Assembly: GCF_034008315.1 (NCBI RefSeq)
Contig: NZ_CP125377.1
Span: 1,438,001 to 1,502,000 of the forward strand
DNA: 64,000 bases
From: Pseudomonas sp. P8_241
GTDB taxonomy: Bacteria > Pseudomonadota > Gammaproteobacteria > Pseudomonadales > Pseudomonadaceae
Reading direction: 5' to 3'
In this document: one piece after another, positions 18,183 through 64,000 of the stretch
Position numbering within the stretch: position 1 is the first letter of the stretch
How the letters are laid out: each line of letters starts with the position of its first letter
Notes under the pieces: model-generated
Databases searched by the model: none
Told to the model about the DNA's origin: nothing
Seen by the model: only the letters and a program-made list of their open reading frames with translations
Made by a program: the position numbers and the translations under genes

Positions 18183-18449
18183 TCAGGCATTTCCTTTACC
18201 TCTGGCTGCTTTCTTAGGGCATTCGTTAAGGGTGTCGGGAGCTAAGAAACCCACCAGAGACGGGCCGGACATATTCCCCTTTCGGGTCTTGTATTCGCCC
18301 ACTCCCGACATAACGGGGATTTTCTCGCAGGCGTAGAGAAACCGCAGACGAAAAAAAGCCGCATGACTGTCGGGTGCGGAGGACCGCTCTGGTTTGTAGA
18401 GTTTCTTAGGCTCGGAGCTGAGGGTAGGAGGATCACGGGCAGTCGTCAA
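18183..18449 (-). other. Structured leader of the Bro-N gene, possibly C4/ash-like
   Basis: Two overlapping short frames run here: 88 codons from a TTG at 18449, and 64 codons in another frame (18242-18436) ending CGFSTPARKSPLCREWANT. Neither has a good start. The RNA shows competing complementary segments: CTAAGAAAC (18409-18401) and CCTAAGAAA (18218-18210) can each pair with GTTTCTTAG (18250-18242), while TGTCGGGAG (18310-18302) pairs with CTCCCGACA (18241-18233). Alternating pairings before an antirepressor gene recall the C4 antisense RNA/icd/ash leaders of P1- and P4-type phages. Function is inferred from layout only. Confidence 0.4.
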
Positions 18450-42833: not shown

Positions 42834-42938
42834 GTTCTGACTCCTGTTTGTGTGAAAAACAGGGCTTTATGAATCGAAGGGGATTTGAGGGTACGCGCAT
42901 GCATGAATGCCTGCGGACGGCCCTATGGTGCCAATCCC

Positions 42939-43105
42939 GTTCTCTCTTCATCCGGACTATGACCGTCGGCCCCGGGATCACACCGGGTCTGCTGACCTTG
43001 TCGCCAGTCACCGCCGAAGCCATGCTGCCGCCAAGCGCTCGCGGGCTATGCGCGTTGCGCGCAATTACCGCCGGTGGGGAGTTGCGCCCCGCCCTGAGAA
43101 CGTTT
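42939..43105 (-). ncRNA. FMN riboswitch (RFN element) before ribH
   Basis: On the minus strand the RNA begins ACGTTCTCAGGGCGGGG. It continues through CCCCACCGGCGGTAAT, GCCCGCGAGCGC, the GACCCGGTGTGATCCCGGGG helix and GCCGACGGTCATAGTCCGG, and closes with GAAGAGAGAACG pairing to the start. All six helices of the RFN aptamer can be recognised. About 105 nt separate it from the ribH start, enough for a translation- or transcription-control platform. Confidence 0.95.
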
Positions 43106-52997: not shown

Positions 52998-53129
52998 CGG
53001 TAGGTAACTCTTCGCTCGAAAGAGGCGCTTGCCTACACTTAAAAAGCCCTACGGACGACATGACAAAATCGTGCCTGCCCGTTAACATGCACGCCGTCCA
53101 TCGCACTGTGAATCATGCGGGGGATTTGT

Positions 53130-53186
53130 GTCTCAGTAGCTCAATTGGATAGAGCATCCCCCTCCTAAGGGGAAGGTTGGCAGTTC
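53130..53186 (+). pseudogene. Interrupted tRNA-Arg (CCT)
   Basis: From GTCTCAGTAGCTCAATTGGA through the anticodon loop CTCCTAA (anticodon CCT) and up to the T loop GGCAGTTC, this is a normal Pseudomonas tRNA-Arg. At 53187 the sequence changes: TTATCTGGGGTACTCC replaces the expected GAATC, T stem and acceptor strand. T-loop A58 is lost, the T stem cannot close fully and the acceptor stem (GTCTCAG) has no partner. The 3' end was most likely replaced when a mobile element integrated here. Confidence 0.8.
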
Positions 53187-53385
53187 TTATCTGGGGTACT
53201 CCCTAGACTCCTATTGAGATCATCTCCTTTGACTGGGAGTGGTGTAAGGAGATTGAGCTGACTCAACTCGGTTTAAGGGGGCCGGGGGCGAAATGGAAAA
53301 TCGGTGAGCACTGAGCATTAAAGCTTTGTTTTTCTTGCTCTTTGCTTGAAACTGACTGAGAAAGAACCGAAGATACATGTGTTGA
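53187..53385 (+). other. Junction sequence with a possible coding relic
   Basis: No intact gene. A short open stretch (53208-53314) translates as PIEIISFDWEWCKEIELTQL then GLRGPGAKWKIGEH and stops; it has no start and could be the tail of a lost gene on the integrated element. AT-rich sequence with TTTGTTTTTC follows before the second tRNA. Confidence 0.3.
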
Positions 53386-53457
53386 GTCCTCTTAGTTCAA
53401 CGGATAGAACGAGCCCCTCCTAAGGGCTAGATGCAGGTTCGATTCCTGCAGGGGACA
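53386..53457 (+). tRNA. Second tRNA-Arg (CCT), diverged
   Basis: 72 nt, CCA not encoded. Acceptor GTCCTCT / AGGGGAC; D arm TTAGTTCAACGGATAGAAC; anticodon loop CTCCTAA giving CCT (codon AGG); variable TAGAT; T arm GCAGGTTCGATTCCTGC. It folds completely, unlike the copy at 53130. Outside the anticodon stem (CCCTCCTAAGGG in both) it differs throughout from the host-type tRNA, so it is not a simple duplication but a foreign tRNA, probably carried by the element. Confidence 0.9.
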
Positions 53458-53831
53458 TATCCTCCCGCTTTGCTTTTTCCTCTAGATTCTTTGTTGCTAA
53501 GCCCTCAAGCAATACCCCTTCCAAGACGATCGCGAAACGGTTTCGATAAGCTATCTGCTAACAGGCTTTAGCCCGATCGACTCTGCCCTTTCCAGTCTCC
53601 TTAGCTAGCAATTCTAGTGCCGTGGCTTAGCGGTGAGCACGAATACACGTTGGGGCGGAATCACAGTCATAGCTCATCACTAGGCGTTTCGAATGCTAGG
53701 TGTAAGAAAGCCCCTACGACTGCCGGTACCGATTCACCTTCGACTTAGCCCGCCCTAGCTGCTCCAGCACTTTCGCCACTCCAAAGTCAGCCCCGGATTC
53801 ATCGTCCGTGGCCGGCACTTGAAGACAAAAA
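53458..53831. other. Gap after second tRNA-Arg
   Basis: 374 bp. No convincing gene. A 52-codon minus-strand frame (53714-53872, TTG start) overlaps the end of the ATPase gene and translates into plausible sequence ending GVAKVLEQLGRAKSKVNRYR, but lacks a ribosome site. No integrase is present. Confidence 0.35.
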
Positions 53832-56180
53832 TCAGGCAACCCGTTTTGAGTATTCTCCCATCCAATCGGCAAGCGACTTCATGTCTGTTTCGAGGTCTGC
53901 AAGCTCAGGTGGAACAGCGGGCAGATCATCTGCCTGGGAGTGCTCGTAAACTGAATATCGAGTCATCAGATCGTCGATCAGATCGCAATCCTCCTGGGTG
54001 ATATTGCTCAGCTGTCTGAGGAGCCCTTTAGTCATCACCTCTCTTCTGAATCGCAGTACGACGCTGTTCAGCAGTACCACCTCTACCGCACGCTCTACGA
54101 TTATCCGGAAGTCGCTGCAGACACTCTTAGCCATGAGGTCATAGCTTTCGGCGTCGCCTTCGGCTTGGTGCTTTTTGAGCTTAGGCAGAAATTCGTTCAA
54201 GAGCTTGTTAATGGCCGTTTTGGGTTTCGAGTCTCTGGCACTTTGTCCTGTCAAGATTCCGGATATCTTCTCTAAGCGTCGAAGGGTTTGAACCTCATGG
54301 ACAATATTTGGGAGATCCGGGTGCTCTGCCACCTTCTTCACGGCGGCGTCCAGAAGTGTGATCAGTGACAATCTGTGAGTGAAGATTATGACTTGGCGTG
54401 TTTGTGCAAGGTCAACAAGGCGTGCGACAACTCGCTCTTCAAAATCCTGATCGAGTGATGAGATCGGGTCATCGAAGATAAAAGGGGCTACCTGGTTTGA
54501 ACCGGTTATGTCCGCAAAAAAAGCTGCGAGCGCAACTATACGCGTCTCACCTTCACTGAGAATTTGCTCTGGCGGACGACTTCCTTTCGCACCTATCAGC
54601 GTCAATCCAAAAGTAGTCCGCCCTTTGCCAATGGTCTTGCTTTGGGGAGCTACAGGTAGCCGCGAACCGCCTAGTAGTTTCAGTTCTGCAGCGAAGCGAG
54701 TTTGATAACCAGCGTCTAATTCGGATTTTGCCAGCTCGTTGTTCTTTGTTGTGAGCGAGTTGGTGGCCGCGAGCTTTATTGCTTTCCCATACTGTTCAAC
54801 GGCTATCAGTCGATCCCGCTCCGTCAGTACTGATTGTTTATTCTGAGCCAGCCACTGTATCCCCTTCAGCTTCCGTACTCGTTCTTCCATTTGCTGCCTT
54901 TTACCGTCTTGCAGCAGTTCGTTCAGCGATTTCTCTTCCGTCTCAAGCGTCTGTGACTGATCAGTTAGTGCCTGATTCACAGGCGCCCAATCAAAAGCTG
55001 CAACCTTTTCAATCTGATCTGCCTTATCTAAGTCTGCACGTCTTTTAACTAATGCCGTGTGTAAATCAATGGCGTGCTGCTGGTCTATTTTGAGCAGCGA
55101 CATGTGAGCTAGCCAGTCCTGCTCTGTCGGTGAGTGGGGGAGTGCGCGGAGCAATCCTTTTAATTTGTCTTCTGCATCTTTGGCCGCACGTTCGAGGCCT
55201 TCGGTGACAAAACTTTCGAAATGTCGCAATCGATCAGCCGAATCGTCCTTGAGTTCCTGTTGGCAGAGCACGCATCGCGACTCGTGACCAACTACGGGGA
55301 ATTCGTTTCCAGGATAGGCATGGCTTTGGGAAAAAAGCCGGGCCTGTGCCCAAAGTTGCTGCCATATGGGTTCACCCACGCCGTCGAGAGGAGCTTCTGC
55401 GAACAGTTGCTGAGCTGACTGTTGGGCAGCCTGACGTTTGAGTTTTGCATCTGAGTGGGCATTAACGATGGCTTGGGCAGCACCATCGGAAAGCTTCTCC
55501 TTGAGCGAACTCATCGCCAATTGCACGTTAGCCAGGCCCTGCTTCTCCTTGGTGATCTCGCCCAGTCGTCCAACGACGTCTTTTTGAGCTAAAGCGCCTT
55601 CGAGGCCGATTCGTTCTGCATCATTTTCCTCTGTGTACAGACATGCTTTGTCGATGGTTGTTGTGATTGTTGCCGGCTTCAGCGCAGCAAGCCATTTGCT
55701 TTCTTCGGTAATTCCCAAATCCAATGGAAATTGAGGTAACGAACTCAATAAGGCGTTCTTCGCCGATCCTAGGTGCTGGCTAACCCTATCTGATATTGCG
55801 ATCAATGCCGCAACGAACTTCATCTGGCTAGGTTCGTAGCTTGCCTCGTTTTTGCCCATGTACTGTGTGGCTGTTCTTGAGTCAAAGATCTGAGCATGGC
55901 GAAGCTTTGGATGAGCGCCGTCGGCGAGTGTCCATTCGATTTTTCCAGCTTGGCCACCAATAGAAAGCTGGAATTGAGCCCGGCAAGGCACCGGCTCTTC
56001 GACGAACACGTTGGGGTGAATTTCGTCTTTCGATCTGGAGCCGCAAGCTTGTTTTAGAAGTCGTGCGTAGCCGCTCTTGCCTGAGCCATTCTGGCCATAG
56101 AACACCGTTATGTTCCCGGCCCCGAATGAAAGCGCGGCTCCTGCTTTGACGGCATGAATCGCCCCGGGTTTCGTAGACAC
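53832..56180 (-). pseudogene. 5'-truncated zinc-hook AAA ATPase (RloC/AAA_13-like)
   Basis: The open frame gives 782 residues but begins with a GTG inside the IS end (first ~9 codons are IS sequence). Relatives have an extra N-terminal domain of perhaps 70-100 residues, lost here. Visible are Walker A GQNGSGKS (29-36), the conserved FDSRTATQYMGKNEASY, long coiled coils around a zinc-hook CVLC near residue 303, signature ILSEGETRIVALAAFFAD, Walker B FIFDDPISSLD near 566, and H-loop IFTHRLSL. The C-terminal domain has RIIVE near 690 and YSVYEHSQ near 745, spaced somewhat like the Arg-Glu-His site of the PrrC/RloC anticodon nucleases. It was probably a phage-defence protein; whether the short form is still made is uncertain. 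Confidence 0.7.
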
Positions 56181-56216
56181 CTCTTTGCCTTAAACTGAGG
56201 CCAATTAGGAGGTGCC

Positions 56217-56495
56217 ATGAGCAACCCGCGTTACCCCGAAGAATTCAAAATCCAAGCGGTCAATCAAGTGACCGAAAAGAAGCTGCCTGTCGCTGATGTA
56301 GCGGCCCGTCTTGGCGTGTCGACGCATAGCCTCTACGCCTGGATAAAGCGCTACAGCAAACCTCAAGAAGAACGGCAGCAGGACGATGATCAGCACGCTG
56401 AACTGCGTCGTCTGCGAGCAGAACTCAAGCGGGTTACTGAAGAGCGAGACATCTTAAAAAAGGCCGCCGCGTACTTTGCCAAGGAGTGCGGTTGA
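56217..56495 (+). CDS. IS3-family transposase OrfA
   Basis: 92 residues. HTH of the IS3/IS911 type (MSNPRYPEEFKIQAVNQVTE, VAARLGVSTHSLYAWIKRYS) is followed by a leucine-zipper-like coiled coil (ELRRLRAELKRVTEERDILK). Near its end lies the slippery heptamer A_AAA_AAG at 56456-56462, in the right frame for a -1 shift into OrfB to make the OrfAB transposase. AGGAGG precedes the ATG. Confidence 0.95.
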   Translation: MSNPRYPEEFKIQAVNQVTEKKLPVADVAARLGVSTHSLYAWIKRYSKPQEERQQDDDQHAELRRLRAELKRVTEERDILKKAAAYFAKECG

Positions 56496-57367
56496 AGTAC
56501 GCCTTTATCAAGCAGCGAGCAGATGACTATTCCATACGACGGCTTTGCCTGACGCTGAAAGTCCACCCCAGTGGGTATTACGCCTGGTTGTCTGAGCCGC
56601 AATCTGCACGCGCCAAAGACGACCAACGACTGCTGGGTTTGATCAAGCATTCATGGCTGGAAAGTGGCGGCGTTTATGGCTATCGCAAAATCCATGACGA
56701 TCTGCGCGAGGTCGGTGAAGACTGTGGTCGCCATCGTGTAGCGAGGCTGATGCGTCTTGAAGGTCTGCGCTCTCAGACAGGGTATCGACGTCGCCCTGGA
56801 AAGTACGGCGGTAAGCCAGCGGTCGCCTCACCCAATTTGCTGAAGCGCCAGTTCGATGTCGTGGAACCCAACAAGGTTTGGGTCACCGACATCACCTACA
56901 TTCGTACATATGAAGGCTGGTTGTACTTGGCTGTGGTGCTGGATCTGTTTTCTCGTCAGGTTGTAGGCTGGTCAATGAAGTCTCAGATGACCAGTGATTT
57001 GGCTATTGATGCGTTATTGATGGCGGTTTGGAGGCGTAAACCGAAACAAGAGGTAATGGTTCATAGCGACCAAGGTAGCCAGTACAGCAGCTCCGATTGG
57101 CGCAGCTTTTTGAAGGCGAACAATTTGGTTGCCAGCATGAGTCGCCGAGGCAACTGTCATGATAATGCCGTGGCCGAGAGCTTTTTCCAGCTTCTGAAAC
57201 GGGAACGGATCAAGCGGAAAATTTACACCACGCGGGAAGATGCTCGTAGTGATGTGTTCGATTACATCGAGATGTTCTACAACGCAAAACGTCGTCATGG
57301 TTTCAACAATCAGCTGTCGCCGGTAGAGTTTGAAAAGCGTTACGCAATGAGCTTGCAAGGTGTCTAG
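56486..57367 (+). CDS. IS3-family transposase OrfB (DDE integrase)
   Basis: 293 residues in the -1 frame relative to OrfA, overlapping it by ten bases. The catalytic triad is intact: Asp in WVTDITYI near residue 135, Asp in VHSDQGSQYSS near 193, Glu in DNAVAESFFQLLK near 231. The HTH_21 start (YSIRRLCLTLKVHPSGYYAW) is normal. The element looks able to transpose. Confidence 0.95.
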   Translation: MRLKYAFIKQRADDYSIRRLCLTLKVHPSGYYAWLSEPQSARAKDDQRLLGLIKHSWLESGGVYGYRKIHDDLREVGEDCGRHRVARLMRLEGLRSQTGYRRRPGKYGGKPAVASPNLLKRQFDVVEPNKVWVTDITYIRTYEGWLYLAVVLDLFSRQVVGWSMKSQMTSDLAIDALLMAVWRRKPKQEVMVHSDQGSQYSSSDWRSFLKANNLVASMSRRGNCHDNAVAESFFQLLKRERIKRKIYTTREDARSDVFDYIEMFYNAKRRHGFNNQLSPVEFEKRYAMSLQGV

Positions 57368-57687
57368 AGAATCCGGGGCGATTCAGTCCAGTTCCGGAGT
57401 CCATCCTCAGAAGGCACCACCCAGGTCACCGTAAAAAATTCGGCATGCTGTTCCCATTTCAATGGGTGGCCACCCAGTCGCGAGATGCCTTGAACAGATA
57501 GTGGGTCTATAGGTGAATGGCAGAGCTTTTCCACAAGCGATTTGCATTCAAACGGATCACCGATGAATGCCAAGTGATAAACATGCGCGGGTTCCTCAAA
57601 GTAGAGAGAAGGTCGAGCGTGCAATTCGTTATGGAGGGACTGTCTTTGACAATGCATGAAGGGCTCGGATTGTGAGTGATCTGACAC
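57364..57687 (-). pseudogene. DUF3422 protein, truncated by the IS
   Basis: Only the first ~100 codons remain: SLHNELHARPSLYFEEPAHV, YHLAFIGDPFECKSLVEKLC, HPLKWEQHAEFFTVTWVVP. This is the N-terminal part of DUF3422 membrane-associated proteins, which are usually over 400 residues. The last residues (SPRIL) come from the IS right end. The start may be the GTG at 57687 or, better, the ATG at 57657 (MHCQRQSLHNELH). The rest of the gene is gone. Confidence 0.82.
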
Positions 57688-57778
57688 GTTTTCATAGTGG
57701 GAGCGTTAGGGTGATTCGCCCTATACATAGGCATTGCTCAGCGGGATCCGTGCCGCTCAAGATGCCGCGCCGATAGAG

Positions 57779-58402
57779 TTAAGGTGATCGAGAAGCCTCG
57801 GTTCTCGCTGACAGAAGCTGGTTCACCATGCCATTGATGAGACTCACAAGTGTTGGCTCTGGCAGATTGCGATGCTGCTTCAGCGTTACTGTGCAGCTAG
57901 TTAATCCGAGAATCCCGCAGGCAATGACTTCGGCATCAATGCGCTGAAAAATGCCTTCTTTCATCCCTCTCTTCAAAATGCATTCGAGCTCACGGGTATA
58001 CACCTGCTCCTGTTCCAAAACGCGCTTCTGCTGGACAGGATCTAGATGACAAGCTTCCATCTTGAGCAGGCGCTCCTCTGGTTCGCTGTGGAGATGTCTT
58101 TGCACGTTGAAGCGAATGAATGCTTCCAGCCTTGGACGCGTTGACCGGTGCTTCGATTTTTCCCTACGCCATGATGCCAGTCGCTTCTGGTGAAGATGCT
58201 CCATTACTTCCTCAAGCAAATCCTGTTTGCTTGGAAAGTGGTAGTAGAGACTCCCAGCGTGAAGCCCAACTGTTTTCGCAAGGCCGCGCATGGACATTCC
58301 AGAAAAGCCTTGATCGGTGATCAGTTGGCAAGCCGAGTCCACGATGTGCTGGCCGATGGTATCTGCGCAGGGCGCATGGGCGGTGCCAATAGCGGTATTC
58401 AT
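57779..58402 (-). CDS. TetR-family transcriptional regulator
   Basis: 207 residues. HTH: VDSACQLITDQGFSGMSMRG, LAKTVGLHAGSLYYHFPSKQ, DLLEEVMEHL. The rest is a helical ligand domain with a TetR_C-like end (VIACGILGLTSCTVTLK). The frame is open to 58480; the ATG at 58402 gives the normal distance to the HTH. It is divergent from the FAD oxidoreductase at 58650 (gap about 250 bp), so it may control it, or the truncated DUF3422 gene that follows it. Confidence 0.85.
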   Translation of the reverse strand: MNTAIGTAHAPCADTIGQHIVDSACQLITDQGFSGMSMRGLAKTVGLHAGSLYYHFPSKQDLLEEVMEHLHQKRLASWRREKSKHRSTRPRLEAFIRFNVQRHLHSEPEERLLKMEACHLDPVQQKRVLEQEQVYTRELECILKRGMKEGIFQRIDAEVIACGILGLTSCTVTLKQHRNLPEPTLVSLINGMVNQLLSARTEASRSP

Positions 58403-58591
58403 GTTCAAGTCGATCCATGTTGCTGGGGCGATTCGTGTTTGGCGCAGTTTGGATCTCGGACAAGAGCCAGTGCGACGCAATTTTGTGCTGAAATCCGTTT
58501 TTAATTAGTGCATTGCTGCACAGTTTTTTATGCGTCCCTAAATGTGCTGAGATGAATATAGAATTTTATCTTATGCCAAGTAAATAGGGGG

Positions 58592-58621
58592 TTTACAGTG
58601 GATCCACGAAAGGATACAAAG
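58592..58621 (+). repeat. 30-bp direct repeat, copy A (upstream of oxidoreductase)
   Basis: TTTACAGTGGATCCACGAAA followed by GGATACAAAG. Copy B at 60219 differs at only three of 30 positions. It lies 29 bp before the oxidoreductase ATG and contains GTGGATCCAC, a palindrome. Possible operator or transcription start region. Confidence 0.8.
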
Positions 58622-58649
58622 TCACCATCAATCCAGCAGGTGGCTACAA

Positions 58650-59831
58650 ATGACTCAGCAAAATGTGCAGAAATTCGATGTTGCTATCATCGGTGGCGGC
58701 ATCATCGGCTCCAGTGTTGCGTACCATATCCTCAAGGCTTCGCCTGGTACGTCGGTGTGCGTGATCGAGCCAGATTCAACCTATGAGTTCGCAAGTGCAC
58801 TGCGTTCCTCGGGTGGTTGCCGAGTTCAATTCACCGGTACTGAGAACATCGAGATGTCGCTCTACAGCATTGAGCGCATCAAAAATTTCGAGCACGAGAT
58901 GGAGTCGAAGGGGCGTCCGGCTCCTGTAGATTGGGTTGAGGGCGGATATCTTTTTGTTGTCGAGCCCGAACACGTCGCCGCGATCGAGCGCAATGTGCGC
59001 AAGCAGCAAGAGCACGGATGCGTGGTGGAGCTCCTTGACGCAGCGGGACTCAAGAATCGCTTCCCATCTATCAACAGTGATGACTTAGGCGTAGGCGCAT
59101 TTACGCCCCATGATGGCTGGTGCGATCCGAACGGCCTGCTCTGGGGTTATCGCCGCAAGGCTGTAGAGCTGGGAGCGGTCTACATAAAGGATAAATTCGT
59201 CGATGCGGTGGTGAGCACCCACAAGGCGCAGACAGCTGTTCTGGAGTCTGGGTTGCGCATCGATGCTGAGGCCTTCATCAACGCCGGCGGAGCCTGGTCA
59301 GGACTGATTGCCGAGAAATTTGGCATGCAACTGCCGATTGTCCCCATGCGTCGATTCGAGCACTACTTCACGCCTGCTACCCCGATGGAGCGGCTGCCGT
59401 ACGTCAAAGACCTTTCGCGTTTGGCATTCCGCTCCGAAGGGGAGGGTTTTTCTGGTGGGCTGGTCAACGGTGCAGAGCCACGTGGTTTCAATTTCGAAGT
59501 TGATCACGATTACTGGGAGCAGGTGGTTTGGCCGGCCGTCGCGCACCGCTTCCCTGCATTGGAAGCTGCTAAATGCCATCGCACTTGGTCGGGCCTGTAT
59601 GAGGTCAACGAGCTGGATGGCAACGCGGTAATTGGTCGCTGGAACTCCAAACTACCTAACCTCTACACAGTTGCAGGTTTCTCTGGGCACGGAATGATGC
59701 ATGCACCCGCAGCGGGCCGAGCGATCGCCGAGCTACTACTCCAAGGTTCGTACCAGTCCTTGGATCTGACTCGCCTGGGTTATGAGCGAGTGGAGGCAAA
59801 TGCGCCTTACGCTGAAGAAGGTATTCTCTGA
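58650..59831 (+). CDS. DAO-type FAD-dependent oxidoreductase
   Basis: 393 residues. Dinucleotide-binding motif VAIIGGGIIGSSVAYHI at residues 11-27, glutamate EPD ending the second strand near 40, and the C-terminal FAD-contacting NLYTVAGFSGHGMMHAPAAG near 336. It belongs to the D-amino-acid oxidase/sarcosine oxidase/glycine oxidase superfamily (FAD-dependent amine or amino-acid oxidation, giving an imine/aldehyde plus ammonia). SALRSSGGCRVQF near residue 50 resembles the sarcosine/dimethylglycine group. With the aldehyde dehydrogenase and the GMC enzyme nearby it would feed a small amine catabolic route. Substrate unknown. Confidence 0.88.
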   Translation: MTQQNVQKFDVAIIGGGIIGSSVAYHILKASPGTSVCVIEPDSTYEFASALRSSGGCRVQFTGTENIEMSLYSIERIKNFEHEMESKGRPAPVDWVEGGYLFVVEPEHVAAIERNVRKQQEHGCVVELLDAAGLKNRFPSINSDDLGVGAFTPHDGWCDPNGLLWGYRRKAVELGAVYIKDKFVDAVVSTHKAQTAVLESGLRIDAEAFINAGGAWSGLIAEKFGMQLPIVPMRRFEHYFTPATPMERLPYVKDLSRLAFRSEGEGFSGGLVNGAEPRGFNFEVDHDYWEQVVWPAVAHRFPALEAAKCHRTWSGLYEVNELDGNAVIGRWNSKLPNLYTVAGFSGHGMMHAPAAGRAIAELLLQGSYQSLDLTRLGYERVEANAPYAEEGIL

Positions 59832-59976
59832 CTCTTCCGCAATAAACAGGATGCGGATGCTGCTGAGAGACATCACTAATTGAGTGCCGGCGTCTACCTG
59901 CCAGATGCCGGCCAGCGGCGAGGCTGATGCCGCCTCTCTGTACTACTGGGCATCTTGCCCGGGGTTGTTTCCTCAC

Positions 59977-60008
59977 TTGCCCAACTGTTGTAGTTGGGCA
60001 ATTTTTTG
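59977..60008 (+). terminator. Rho-independent terminator of the oxidoreductase gene
   Basis: TTGCCCAACT / AGTTGGGCAA perfect 10-bp stem with a five-base loop and six T. Confidence 0.93.
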
Positions 60009-60218
60009 AAGGTGCGCATTGACTTATCTGGTTGGTGTCGCTTCGATTCCCTGTCGTTGATATCCAGCCATCTCGGATGAGCACCGCTCAGTGATTCAAG
60101 TAGCGGGCAGGCTGCCGGTTTTGTGCGGAAATGCGGGACAAGGAAAACCTTCTCGTGTCGGTGGAAACAACCAAGACGTCCCACATAAGAAAGTACCAGC
60201 AGTCCATAAGGGCAGGTC

Positions 60219-60248
60219 TTTACAGTGGATCCATAAAAGGATACAACG
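60219..60248 (+). repeat. 30-bp direct repeat, copy B (upstream of GntR gene)
   Basis: TTTACAGTGGATCCATAAAA followed by GGATACAACG, 27 of 30 identical to copy A at 58592. It is about 165 bp before the GntR gene. Shared operator or duplication border. Confidence 0.8.
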
Positions 60249-60411
60249 TGGATATGCCGAATTTCGAAGAGTTTTTGTGCGCAGAAAATGTGCAAAAAAT
60301 CGTTATTGATCTAGCCCCATCAAGATCACCATTTTCCTGTCATTTGATAACCCAGCAAATCGTTACAGCTCTATTCAAGCGCAGAACAAGTATTCCTCAG
60401 GAGTTTCCGCC

Positions 60412-61158
60412 ATGCAGGGGGTCTTGGGATCTCCTGAGGCTAGGGTGTTGTTCTCAACCGTCCATCAAAAAGATCTTTATATGCCCGTGCAAAGTGCTCT
60501 CGAAGAAAACAAGATCGGCTTAAGCGCCGACGCCGTCACGAACCGCCTCCGGGAAATGATATTGAGCGGGACTATCGGTATAGGCGTACAGCTTAAGCAG
60601 GTTCATTTGGCCAAGCAGTTTGGAGTGAGTCGGCTGCCAGTTCGAGAGGCGCTAAAAAGACTGGAAGCTGAGGGGCTCATCCGCCACGTAGCGCGTCAAG
60701 GTTCAGTCGTGGCGAACAAGTCAGTTGCTGACCTGATTGAAACGCTGGACATCCGGATCGCCCTAGAGAGCAGAGCACTCCAGCTGTCGATCCCAAAGCT
60801 CCAGGATTCCGACTTTAGCGCCGCTCGGGATGTGCTGCATCGATACGAAGAAAGTACATCTCCACGAGAGTGGGGTGAGCTGAACCTTGAGTTCCATTCC
60901 ATTCTCTATCGTGCCTGTCAGCGTCCAACGCTGTTGAAAATGATCGCGGACACTGTCAAAGGTGTAGACCTACATCTCAAGGTGTTGCAGTCCAATTCAG
61001 TAGGGCAAAAATCCTCGCTTAGGGAGCACGCAGACATTTTGGAAGCGTGCGAAGCCCGCGATGTTGCAACCGCTATCCTCTTGTTGGAACAGCACATCGA
61101 GCACACTCAAAATGCTTTGTTGCAAATACCTGTGCTCCCAGAGCCGTTCGCATTTTGA
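60412..61158 (+). CDS. GntR-family (FadR/FCD type) regulator
   Basis: 248 residues. Winged HTH (VTNRLREMILSGTIGIGVQL, KQFGVSRLPVREALKRLEAE, GLIRHVARQGSVVA) and a C-terminal FCD helical ligand domain (ETLDIRIALESRALQLS, ELNLEFHSILYRACQRPTLL, REHADILEACEARDVATAIL) with its metal-ligand histidines. AGGAG eight bases before 60412 selects that ATG over the one at 60481. It is probably the local regulator of the amine cluster, with the 30-bp repeats as candidate sites. Confidence 0.9.
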   Translation: MQGVLGSPEARVLFSTVHQKDLYMPVQSALEENKIGLSADAVTNRLREMILSGTIGIGVQLKQVHLAKQFGVSRLPVREALKRLEAEGLIRHVARQGSVVANKSVADLIETLDIRIALESRALQLSIPKLQDSDFSAARDVLHRYEESTSPREWGELNLEFHSILYRACQRPTLLKMIADTVKGVDLHLKVLQSNSVGQKSSLREHADILEACEARDVATAILLLEQHIEHTQNALLQIPVLPEPFAF

Positions 61159-61197
61159 CTTAGATACATCACCACAGCTTAGAAACAGGATTACGAA

Positions 61198-61947
61198 ATG
61201 GTCGATCTTGATTTTTTAACGGATCTCTCCTGCTCCGGAACGAATTTGTCCTTTGTCGAACAGCTCTTCGATCTCTTGCCGGATGTCCAATTTTTTATCA
61301 AGGATCACGCTGCTCGATATTTGGTGGTGAACCAGGCCATTGTCGAACATGCTGGCCTATCAGACAAAAGGGACATGATCGGCCGCACATGCGAAGAGAT
61401 TTTCACCAACCCAGGCGGGAAGATTTCACAGCAGGATTTGCATGTCATCGAGACGGGAAAAGAAGTCCTGAACGCTTTGGAGATGTGCCTTTCCCTGAAT
61501 AAACAGCGCAAGTGGTGTCTGAGCTCAAAATTTAAAGTGCGAGGAGCAGTGCCAGGTGGCGCGGCGTTGGTGGGGATTTCCAGGGTGCTCCCTGCGACTG
61601 AGGAGCGGCATGACAACTATAGGACGTTGAATTCATTTTTGGCGTATCTGAAAGACAACTGCAACACACCTATCCTAATCAAGGATGCTGCCAAAACGTT
61701 TAATTTTTCTTCGGATGTGCTTGAGCGTCTGACACGAGAGCTGTTCAGTCTCACGCCTAAGCAGATTTTGACCCAGCTCCGCATGGAGAGAGCCTGCACG
61801 CTGCTGGAAACGACGACTCAGAGCGTAAATGAGATTGTCGGTGACTGCGGATATGTAGACCATAGTGCATTCACACGTCAGTTCAAGGCGAGTACCCACT
61901 ACACCCCTCTTCAGTATCGACATGCGGTTGCGGGTTTGCGTCGATAA
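61198..61947 (+). CDS. PAS-AraC transcriptional regulator
   Basis: 249 residues. The N-terminal PAS-like sensor (FVEQLFDLLPDVQFFIKDHA, RYLVVNQAIVEHAGLSDKRD, GRTCEEIF) is followed by a C-terminal AraC double HTH (ILIKDAAKTFNFSSDVLERL, then VNEIVGDCGYVDHSAFTRQF, and THYTPLQYRHAV). It follows the GntR gene by 39 bp on the same strand, probably co-transcribed. Two regulators in one unit suggest control of different genes of the cluster. Confidence 0.87.
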   Translation: MVDLDFLTDLSCSGTNLSFVEQLFDLLPDVQFFIKDHAARYLVVNQAIVEHAGLSDKRDMIGRTCEEIFTNPGGKISQQDLHVIETGKEVLNALEMCLSLNKQRKWCLSSKFKVRGAVPGGAALVGISRVLPATEERHDNYRTLNSFLAYLKDNCNTPILIKDAAKTFNFSSDVLERLTRELFSLTPKQILTQLRMERACTLLETTTQSVNEIVGDCGYVDHSAFTRQFKASTHYTPLQYRHAVAGLRR

Positions 61948-61950
61948 TGA

Positions 61951-61978
61951 GTGCTCCAACCTTACTAGGTTGGAGCAC
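61951..61978. terminator. Symmetric hairpin between convergent genes
   Basis: Perfect 11-bp inverted repeat GTGCTCCAACC / GGTTGGAGCAC with a six-base loop, directly after the AraC gene and just before the end of the aldehyde dehydrogenase gene. No clear T-run, so it may act as a two-way terminator or 3'-end stabiliser. Confidence 0.75.
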
Positions 61979-61985
61979 CTTCTAG

Positions 61986-63422
61986 TTAAACCTGCGCGTC
62001 AGCTACCATTTTGGTTCGCAGATAAGCGTCCAAGCCTTCCAGCCCGCTTTCATGGCCATATCCTGATTCATTGAATCCTCCGAAAGGGGTCTCTGCCTCA
62101 TGTACAGACATATGGTTGATGCCCACCACGCCCGCCTCAACCGCTTGGCTGGCTCGTGCAGCAGTCGTTCCATCGCGAGTAAAGATGTACGCGGCCAATG
62201 CATATGGCAGCGCGTTCGCTCGCTGAATCACCTCTTCGAAGGTGTCGAACACGGTCAGAGGAGCGAGCGGGCCAAACGGTTCATCAACCATGATTAATGC
62301 GTCATCTGGGACGTCACGCATTACCGTTGGAGCAAAGAAGAAACCTTCGCGCTCCAGTCGGCTTCCTCCGGTGAGTACTTTGGCGCCTTTCGCTACTGCA
62401 TCTGCCACCAAAGTATCCATGTTATCCAAGCGGCGTTCGGTGATCAGCGGGCCCATTACTACGCCTTGCTCCAAGCCGTTCCCAATAACCAGGCGTTTGG
62501 TACGCTCCAGAAAACCCGCTATGAATTGCTCATAGATTGAACGGTGGATAAAGAAGCGGGTAGGGGAGGTGCACACCTGCCCAGCGTTTTTGAATTTCGC
62601 TGCCACGAGTTGATCGAGAGCACGCTCCAGATTCGCGTCCTCAAATACCAATACAGGAGCGTGTCCGCCCAGTTCCATAGTGCAACGTTTCAGTGTGTCC
62701 GCAGCGAGCTTCTGCAGCGTTTTCCCTACTGGTGTGGAGCCGGTGAGTGACACTTTCTTGGGGATGGGTGAGCCAATCAGGTATTCCGAGATCGGGCCAG
62801 GGGGGCCAAATACCAGACCGATAACTCCTGCTGGAATGCCTGCGTCCTGGAAGCAACGAACGATACCCACTGCAGTACCAGGTGTTTCATTGCTTGGTTT
62901 CACGATGATGGAGCATCCCGCCGCTAGCGCGCCGGCGATCTTCAGTGCAACGTTCCCAGCGGGGAAGTTCCAAGCTGCAAACCCCAAAGCCGGCCCGACA
63001 GGTTCTTTAAGAACGCTCTGGCGAACAAGCGGGTTTCGTGCAGGAATGATTCGACCATATGCTCGTTTGCCTTCCTCGGCGTACCAGCGGATGGCATCAA
63101 CACAGAACTGAACTTCACCAGCAGCTTCTTGCAACGACTTTCCGTTCTCTTGGGTGAGTACGCGGGAAATTTCTGGTTTGCGCGCTTCCAAAAGATCAGC
63201 TGCTTTGCTGAGCAGCGTCCATCGTTGGGCTGCAGTCAGCTGTTTCCATTCTTCAAACGCTCGCTGGGTAGCATTGAGAGCCCGGTCGAGGTCTTCGATG
63301 CTCGCACATGGAATGGTGGCAATTTCTTCTCCAGTGGCTGGGTTGAGCAGAGGTAGAGTTTCACCCTCGCTGCCAAGGCACCATGCTCCATCAATCAGCA
63401 ATTCGATCTTTTCGTTAAACAT
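61986..63422 (-). CDS. Aldehyde dehydrogenase, succinate-semialdehyde dehydrogenase-like
   Basis: 478 residues, NAD(P)-dependent. FAAWNFPAGNVALKIAGALA near residue 146, NAD-contact LTGSTPVGKTLQKLAADTLK near 224, general-base Glu in MELGGHAPVLVFED near 247-260, and the catalytic Cys in NAGQVCTSPTRFFI near 280. GINHMSVHEAETPFGGFNES near the end is typical of the GabD/semialdehyde group. It would oxidise the aldehyde released by the oxidoreductases of the cluster. It is transcribed with the GMC gene (same strand, about 40 bp apart). Confidence 0.92.
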   Translation of the reverse strand: MFNEKIELLIDGAWCLGSEGETLPLLNPATGEEIATIPCASIEDLDRALNATQRAFEEWKQLTAAQRWTLLSKAADLLEARKPEISRVLTQENGKSLQEAAGEVQFCVDAIRWYAEEGKRAYGRIIPARNPLVRQSVLKEPVGPALGFAAWNFPAGNVALKIAGALAAGCSIIVKPSNETPGTAVGIVRCFQDAGIPAGVIGLVFGPPGPISEYLIGSPIPKKVSLTGSTPVGKTLQKLAADTLKRCTMELGGHAPVLVFEDANLERALDQLVAAKFKNAGQVCTSPTRFFIHRSIYEQFIAGFLERTKRLVIGNGLEQGVVMGPLITERRLDNMDTLVADAVAKGAKVLTGGSRLEREGFFFAPTVMRDVPDDALIMVDEPFGPLAPLTVFDTFEEVIQRANALPYALAAYIFTRDGTTAARASQAVEAGVVGINHMSVHEAETPFGGFNESGYGHESGLEGLDAYLRTKMVADAQV

Positions 63423-63461
63423 GTGAACTCCAATGAATTTGGGTATGACGCGATGCCCGGA

Positions 63462-64000
63462 TCAGCTTCGGTAAAACGACGCTGTTGATGGGGGAAGAGG
63501 AGTTTTGCCAGCGATGCGGTCGCTGATTTTTTCAGCAATCATCATGATCGAGGCACTGAGATTGGCTGTGACTACGCGTGGCATGATCGAGGCGTCTACA
63601 ACTCGCAACTTCTGAACACCGCGCACGCGACCTTCTGAGTCAACTACAGAGTCATCATCAGAACCCATCCGGCAAGTTCCAGCGGGGTGATACGAAGTGC
63701 CGGTATTCGCGCGTATGAATGCCTCCAGATCCTTATCGGTCTGGGCGTCAGCTCCGGGTGCAAGCTCCTCTCCTCGAATTCCATCCCAGACCGGCTGCGC
63801 GATCAGCTTGCGAGCGAGGCGGATCGAATCGATCATGTCGCGCATGTCCTGTTGAGTGCTCAAATGGTTGAACACAATCAGAGGAGCGTCAGTCGGGTCT
63901 TTGGAGCGAAGAGTCACCGAGCCACGGCTTTCGGGACGAGAAAGATCAACCCAGAATTGGAATCCCGGAACGGCTACGAGCTTTCCATTGCGGACAAAGC
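63462..64000 (-). CDS. GMC-family oxidoreductase, C-terminal part (5' end off window)
   Basis: About 179 codons of the C-terminal half of a glucose-methanol-choline FAD enzyme, choline-dehydrogenase-like: VPGFQFWVDLSRPESRGSVT, PLIVFNHLSTQQDMRDMIDS, and the catalytic region TGTSYHPAGTCRMGSDDDSV with the active-site His, then LRVVDASIMPRVVTANLSAS. The FAD-binding N-terminus lies beyond base 64000. It would oxidise an alcohol to the aldehyde used by the downstream dehydrogenase at 61986. The frame is open to the window end. Confidence 0.92.
   Translation of the reverse strand, partial: FVRNGKLVAVPGFQFWVDLSRPESRGSVTLRSKDPTDAPLIVFNHLSTQQDMRDMIDSIRLARKLIAQPVWDGIRGEELAPGADAQTDKDLEAFIRANTGTSYHPAGTCRMGSDDDSVVDSEGRVRGVQKLRVVDASIMPRVVTANLSASIMMIAEKISDRIAGKTPLPPSTASFYRS

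Follow-up and report, generated by a model that had tools for sequence, protein, structure and literature searches.

How did a Pseudomonas genome come to carry a tRNA-Arg(CCT) gene that breaks off in its T loop, with a complete but different tRNA of the same anticodon shortly downstream, and does that second gene stand in for the first? This arrangement begins at position 53130 of the 64,000-nucleotide stretch analysed here (the window; C1:1438001-1502000 of G000, the complete 6.39-Mb Pseudomonas-type genome of Pseudomonas sp. P8_241). We found that an element of about 51 kb splits the host gene. Together with the related elements described below, it very probably belongs to a family of integrative elements that break tRNA genes and, rather than restoring them, carry a replacement with the same anticodon.

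The broken copy is of host type as far as the T loop (Table 1). Its 57 nt are identical (57/57) to the intact tRNA of many relatives, and foreign sequence, TTATCTGGGG, starts at 53187. Rfam scored the broken copy at 34 bits versus 66 bits for the complete one, and both contain CCCTCCTAAGGG (53160-53171 and 53415-53426). The initial annotation had described this anatomy, including the CCT anticodon of the second copy and its lack of an encoded CCA, and the Rfam and ARAGORN results agreed with it throughout. The missing CCA is no hallmark of the element, because it is also absent from some native replacement-type genes and present in the replacements of other elements. When ARAGORN was run on stretches spanning all 68 Rfam tRNA sites of G000, the copy at 53386 was the single CCT tRNA, so that the genome-wide check proposed earlier revealed no other intact gene of this kind. 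A tRNA-Arg(TCT) is also present in G000.

The missing 3' half was found elsewhere in the genome. Searching the whole 6.39-Mb sequence with a 24-base form of the tRNA 3' end (≤3 mismatches) gave one site, against none for a reversed control pattern. This site, GTTCGAACCTGCCCTGGGACACCA at C1:1542206-1542229, lies on the same strand 51 kb downstream and is followed by a terminator-like hairpin. With the 5' part at the break and the 3' half 51 kb away, the tRNA is therefore split by a 51-kb element whose far end is marked by the 3' half, in line with the initial proposal that an element had entered the gene, destroyed it and supplied a tRNA of its own. Once joined, the element site would be CCACAGATAA-AGGTTC-TTATCTGGGG; its spacer shares GTTC alone with the host site, which is too little for rebuilding the host tRNA. 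Upstream of the break, a consensus scan for the host promoter gave one match versus 0.4 expected from shuffles, which is weak on its own. A GACATGACAAA...TTAACATGC block also precedes the tRNA-Arg(CCT) locus in related genomes. No terminator was predicted between the break and the replacement tRNA in a scan of the window.

Table 1. Features of the tRNA-Arg(CCT) locus and the integrated element (window positions, or genome positions where prefixed C1)
Feature	Position	Strand	Remarks
Host tRNA promoter, predicted	53060..53088	+	ATGACA-17-TAACAT; intact upstream of the break
Host tRNA-Arg(CCT), 5' part (positions 1-57 of 77)	53130..53186	+	T-loop cut after GTTC; ends ...GGCAGTTC
6-base junction, host version CAGTTC	53181..53186	+	Far end AGGTTC; GTTC common to both
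Integrated element, about 51 kb	C1:1491187-1542205; window part 53187..64000	+	Splits the host tRNA; host 3' half, then hairpin, beyond the far end
Left terminal repeat TTATCTGGGGTACTCCC	53187..53203	+	Inverted far end TTATCTGTGGTACCCCC agrees at 15/17 bases
Replacement tRNA-Arg(CCT), complete, element-borne	53386..53457	+	ARAGORN; different body; no encoded CCA
Cargo: 782-aa AAA ATPase	53832..56180	-	Pfam AAA_13; candidate anti-phage defence family PDC-S06, 1035 bits
Cargo: two open reading frames resembling IS3-type transposase	56217..57367	+	Named from protein appearance
Recombinase trio of G000	C1:1535150-1540529	-	Inside the element, outside the window

We compared the site across a sample of 199 genomes of the genus, using the replacement tRNA, the host tRNA and the host tRNA 3' end as Arg queries (genomes and sequence stretches are cited by G and L numbers). 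Three relatives with AlaS 97% identical to that of G000 (G029, G084 and G162) have one intact host-type tRNA at this site, with both flanks collinear. The host 3' half of G000 is directly followed by about 1.6 kb of transposase-like sequence. The replacement tRNA had matches in 87/199 genomes (E ≤ 0.001), and the three relatives were not among them. The initial annotation had suggested examining relatives without the insertion, and these proved to have the host form and not both. The tRNA is likewise intact in G192, the sister of the broken G094 (see below), where the upstream flank was 95% identical and the downstream flank matched only across the tRNA 3' end itself.

The element of G000 carries a trio of unannotated genes, which encode the tyrosine recombinase IntA, a protein of 1100 aa with a second tyrosine-recombinase-like domain, and a smaller protein of 199 aa. 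PF00589 scored above its cut-off in IntA of G000 and G094, and tyrosine-recombinase evidence was obtained for two of the three genes. Identity of the trio to that of G000 was 23-35% in G400 (P. ullengensis) and 25-33% in G094. The order IntA, a protein of about 1058-1149 aa, and a protein of about 163-255 aa was found in 19/22 loci. In the exceptions, the small gene was unseen at a contig or stretch end (G004 and G167) or the large gene was not found (G168). In G152, a stop truncates IntA.

The same anatomy recurred in other genomes. Searches of the 199 genomes gave T-loop breaks with a replacement at tRNA-Arg(CCT) in G000, G094, G116 and G136. The last three were first found by the replacement-tRNA query and are biased in this respect, whereas the break-pattern and IntA sets described next are free of this bias. 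A scan for the break pattern in one genome per species (84,980 species) returned 95 stretches, all of which were examined. Five were T-loop breaks, each with a complete CCT tRNA downstream: L197 (P. capeferrum 20A1), L203 (P. graminis PDD-13b-3), L272 (P. poae DSM 14936), L273 (P. ullengensis UL070) and L282 (P. saxonica DSM 108989). We take L272 and L282 to be the same contigs as G136 and G116, respectively. Among the other stretches, L276 is a 3' piece, and the remainder look by eye like intact tRNAs with A after GTTC.

Using IntA alone as the query, we obtained 21 matches in 20 of the 199 genomes. Seventeen lie at tRNA genes cut after the T-loop GTTC (2 Arg-CCT, 6 Gly-CCC, 6 CAT and 3 Ser). 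Two of the Ser cases were seen by the right end only; G126 matches tRNA-Ser(TGA) exactly over 26 bases, and G015 is tentative. Every left (promoter-side) end found through IntA (15/15) is followed 41-309 bp further in, on the same strand, by a complete tRNA that differs from the broken one but has its anticodon, and the count became 20/20 when five Arg cases (G116, G136, G199, G200 and G400) were added. The initial annotation had called replacement by a non-identical tRNA unusual, which understates a process that recurs in a recombinase family acting on four tRNA genes.

The sequence after GTTC was TTAT in 17 left ends, TTAC in two and TTGT in one, and none of the 20 showed any remnant of a tRNA half at this place. 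Most right ends read (A/T)TAA-NN-GTTC, with G400 and G116 deviating. The pattern ATAA-NNGTTC-TTAT is present in most elements besides that of G000, the exact repeat length having been measured in G000 only. The displaced host 3' half was detected on the same contig and strand in 13/20 elements: Arg 5/7 (G000, G094, G116, G200 and G400), Gly 4/6 (at 28.9-50.1 kb), CAT 4/6 (at 8.8-53.6 kb) and Ser 0/1. In G136 it lies on another contig, and the CAT 3' half of G032 has four mismatches to the G000 tRNA.

In a tree built from 22 IntA sequences, the clades largely followed the target tRNA. The target label changed five times, where the minimum is four and the mean of shuffled labels was 13.5; none of 200 shuffles was as low. 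The CAT group formed one clade with support 100/100. Of the four members not placed at a tRNA, three fell within the Gly clade and the other within the Ser clade. The Arg grouping was weak (58/75), and with some long branches in the tree, G000 and G094 may join falsely.

The CAT target is probably tRNA-Ile2, which it resembles more than elongator Met when compared with E. coli. Three replacement CAT tRNAs (G033, G168 and the second of G094; L386:9691-10004, L390, L395) have an anticodon-loop intron of 236-244 nt. The score of the G033 intron against the group I family was 27.8 bits (E 2.7e-5), short of the gathering score of 50; in Azoarcus, tRNA-Ile(CAU) contains a group I intron.

The replacement had been called foreign in the initial annotation. 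This holds for the G000 lineage but not for the genus, as the window replacement tRNA is identical to the native CCT tRNA of G020, G026, G149, G181, G182 and G184, which lies about 6-7 kb from alaS like the host tRNA (where both were listed). A second kind of element, in G010, G052 and G180 (L170-L176, L183-L184), cuts tRNA-Arg(CCT) in the anticodon arm and likewise brings a whole tRNA-Arg(CCT), placed about 105 bp inside. The host tRNA broken in G180 is of a replacement-like type. The end gene of these elements (473-488 aa) had no Pfam match.

We placed these events on an AlaS tree of 47 genomes, hand-picked from about 150 of the 199 and without the anticodon-cut G180 and most species with a more distant kind of native replacement-type tRNA. 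The six broken genomes in this tree (T-loop G000, G094, G116 and G136; anticodon-cut G010 and G052) account for six separate changes on a background of intact species, and well-supported branches force at least five of them. Another five changes are required for nine genomes in which the only tRNA at hand is of the replacement type or similar. In G093 (L084), a decayed-looking 5' half of the host tRNA-Arg directly precedes an intact replacement-type tRNA (alignment score 19, versus a maximum of 3 in 1000 shuffles), and this arrangement is likely a fossil of tRNA replacement. At tRNA-Gly(CCC) of G026 (L392), the gene was probably swapped once already before the present break, because the tRNA that was broken there already belongs to the replacement type found in G183.

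From these observations, the following mechanism can be proposed. The trio would recombine the element site ...ATAA-NNGTTC-TTAT... with GTTC in the T loop of the host tRNA, an action assumed by analogy with strand-biased circularizing integrative elements (SE) and Tn554-like systems. Because little more than GTTC is shared, the host tRNA would not be rebuilt: its 5' half would stay behind the host promoter and its 3' half would be pushed to the far end. The loss would be offset by the complete different tRNA of the same anticodon and strand just inside the promoter-side end. This replacement is presumably transcribed from the host promoter, since the gap between break and replacement is only 41-65 bp in 14/20 left ends (13/15 among those found through IntA), which would leave little room for a separate promoter. 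G199 and G200 show their own promoter-like block in front of the tRNA; by eye it resembles the block preceding the tRNA of G149 and G181. Once transcribed, the replacement would be processed and charged and would supply the lost function; it is plausible that AGG decoding in G000 is kept going in this way.

The tRNA at 53386 might instead be cargo that aids the AGG-rich genes of the element, its nearness to the broken gene being incidental. Among mechanically chosen open reading frames, AGG accounts for 63/790 Arg codons in the element versus 2/308 in 12 host reading frames of the window, and the G094 element carries an extra tRNA-Arg(TCT) (L178:11635-11709) for which no broken counterpart was seen. 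However, such cargo would not track the target, and in 20/20 left ends the anticodon matches that of the broken tRNA, for four different tRNAs, on the same strand and at most 309 bp from the break. We therefore consider the cargo explanation improbable. An ordinary tRNA-targeting integrase would also yield this picture if its restoring 3' half had decayed and a spare tRNA had taken over. Restoring insertions do look common at tRNA-Arg(CCT), as 23/199 genomes have at least two matches to its 3' half (≤3 mismatches), probably reflecting ordinary restoring islands. Moreover, the left junctions of the anticodon-cut elements in G010 and G052 run on into a decayed-looking tRNA 3' half (by eye), and elements of this second kind may have begun as restoring ones and come to rely on a spare tRNA later. 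In the T-loop family, by contrast, all 20 left ends consist of element end sequence, and most right ends carry its inverted counterpart before GTTC. Decay after restoration was accordingly rejected for this family as very unlikely. Two native tandem tRNA-Arg(CCT) genes, one of them decayed, would account for the common anticodon and the 12 shared bases, but the 3' half is intact 51 kb away and close relatives have the host form only at the site; we rejected this origin as scarcely credible. An assembly error was dismissed because the anatomy recurs in many genomes. We also gave up the idea that the far-end spacer of 6 bp records the host tRNA occupied before, as several Gly and CAT spacers mismatch the host tRNA.

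Several observations weigh against a family that destroys and replaces tRNA genes. By the wobble rule, tRNA-Arg(TCT) may read AGG too, so the need for a replacement at the window locus is uncertain: tRNA-Arg(TCT) might cover this codon. Given the AGG-rich element, its tRNA may also serve the element's own genes, and for the extra tRNA-Arg(TCT) of G094 no matching broken gene was seen. The displaced 3' half was not found in 6/20 elements within the roughly 5 to 79 kb examined. Four IntA relatives (G152, G112, G167 and G074) were not placed at any tRNA. Conversely, no trio relative was found in the Arg elements of G116, G136, G199 and G200 despite their similar ends, in a search that left part of the G136 and G199 elements unseen and did not cover other integrases systematically.

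Restoring and replacing elements may also meet at one site. In G299 (L287), an intact tRNA-Arg(CCT) whose 3' half is different is followed after 1.3 kb by an element-like right end (CAGATAACGGTTC and then the host 3' half); a restoring element may here be stacked on a replacing one. A further element-like right end with a tRNA-Arg 3' half was found at G359:C2:5250-5282 (L286, L314); no tRNA-Arg 5' half was found in the G359 genome.

The T-loop elements share features with several known systems and differ from each of them. We take the gamma-mobile-trio (GMT) to be a three-gene recombination module with a layout similar to that of the trio. The NCBIfam models GmtX, GmtY and GmtZ gave no match for the G000 trio, and G094 IntA scored 22.3 bits versus a GmtY cut-off of 340. 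We know of no tRNA replacement by Tn554 or GMT. Compared by layout alone, Tn554 likewise has a three-gene recombination module similar to the trio (PMC10214605). SE (Tn6283 and kin) resemble the T-loop family in having two tyrosine recombinases with a small partner, in being frequent in Pseudomonas, and in having imperfect 13-19 bp inverted end repeats around a 6-bp spacer (15/17 bases in G000), but have four core genes (intA-tfp-intB-srap) versus three in the trio by gene count and size (PMC10214605). No fourth gene was present in the trio operon of G000. A further trait of SE is that circularization leaves no empty site behind. In SE, the host 6 bp are at the intA-proximal end, whereas those of G000 are at the intA-distal end; in G094 the host and element 6 bp agree, which leaves that case ambiguous. 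The paper does not mention 'tRNA' (PMC10214605), and neither does that on GInts (ginABCD; PMC5385486). GInts are also large Pseudomonas islands with several recombinases, short imperfect att sites and 6-nt staggered cuts, but by gene count they have four gin genes, three of them recombinase-type, versus three trio genes, and their reported targets include an ABC transporter gene and ssb (PMC5385486).

Islander-class islands and prophages likewise combine a tyrosine recombinase, insertion within a tRNA gene and a displaced fragment at one end (PMC4383910). The T-loop family has such a recombinase (PF00589 in the G000 and G094 IntA) and such a fragment (in G000 and 13/20 elements overall, plus G136 on another contig). 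Islander-class islands, however, carry a piece of the same tRNA and restore it (PMC4383910), whereas the T-loop family leaves the gene broken and supplies a whole different tRNA, with no tRNA half at any of 20/20 left ends. An archaeal case in Caldiarchaeum has a 5' fragment of tRNA-Thr, a recombinase-coding insert and a second, intron-bearing tRNA of the same identity 1.8 kb away, but it is a single locus and was read as intron gain with fragment scattering by a mobile element, not as the replacement habit of an element family (PMC3293823). Tycheposons also use a tyrosine recombinase and are bordered on one side by a tRNA gene; the text consulted does not state whether this tRNA restores or replaces the target (PMC10872708).

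Published work gives reconstitution of the tRNA gene upon integration as the rule (PMC4383910, PMC8371274), and island finders rely on it. Finders that seek a tRNA together with its own fragment would probably miss or misplace the T-loop elements, because these do not repair the gene and bring another, complete tRNA. Our literature search found no description of a tRNA gene being replaced in this way; as it did not extend to most subscription journals or to any bioRxiv preprints, absence from print is not established. Such a family could explain non-orthologous tRNA alleles at native loci and would represent a new form of element maintenance, in which the host depends on the element's tRNA. 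It also points to an unannotated two-recombinase system whose clearest core shared with the target is GTTC, a T-arm part of nearly every tRNA gene. Turnover of tRNA genes thereby becomes directly testable in tractable soil pseudomonads.

As a tentative extension, somewhat on the doubtful side, the trio family might live by taking over tRNA genes. Each lineage would be tuned to one single-copy tRNA and would destroy it through the T-loop GTTC; the element's own tRNA, including the probably essential Ile2, would become the only copy and make the element hard to lose. The replacement allele would no longer be a target for the same element, and a divergent element could attack it later, as G026 suggests. 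The outcome would be serial tRNA turnover across the genus, with replacement tRNAs left at the native locus after element loss.

Pfam assigned 10 cargo proteins in C1:1496650-1521579 of the G000 element, comprising FAD oxidoreductases, an aldehyde dehydrogenase, a GMC oxidoreductase, ABC transporter parts, a histidine kinase and a Rieske oxygenase. The P. saxonica element (L179) carries CBASS-type defence genes for an oligonucleotide cyclase and an E1-E2 protein. Elsewhere in the window, matches to the FMN riboswitch (42935-43105) and to the sRNA-Xcc1 family (18226-18309) were observed.
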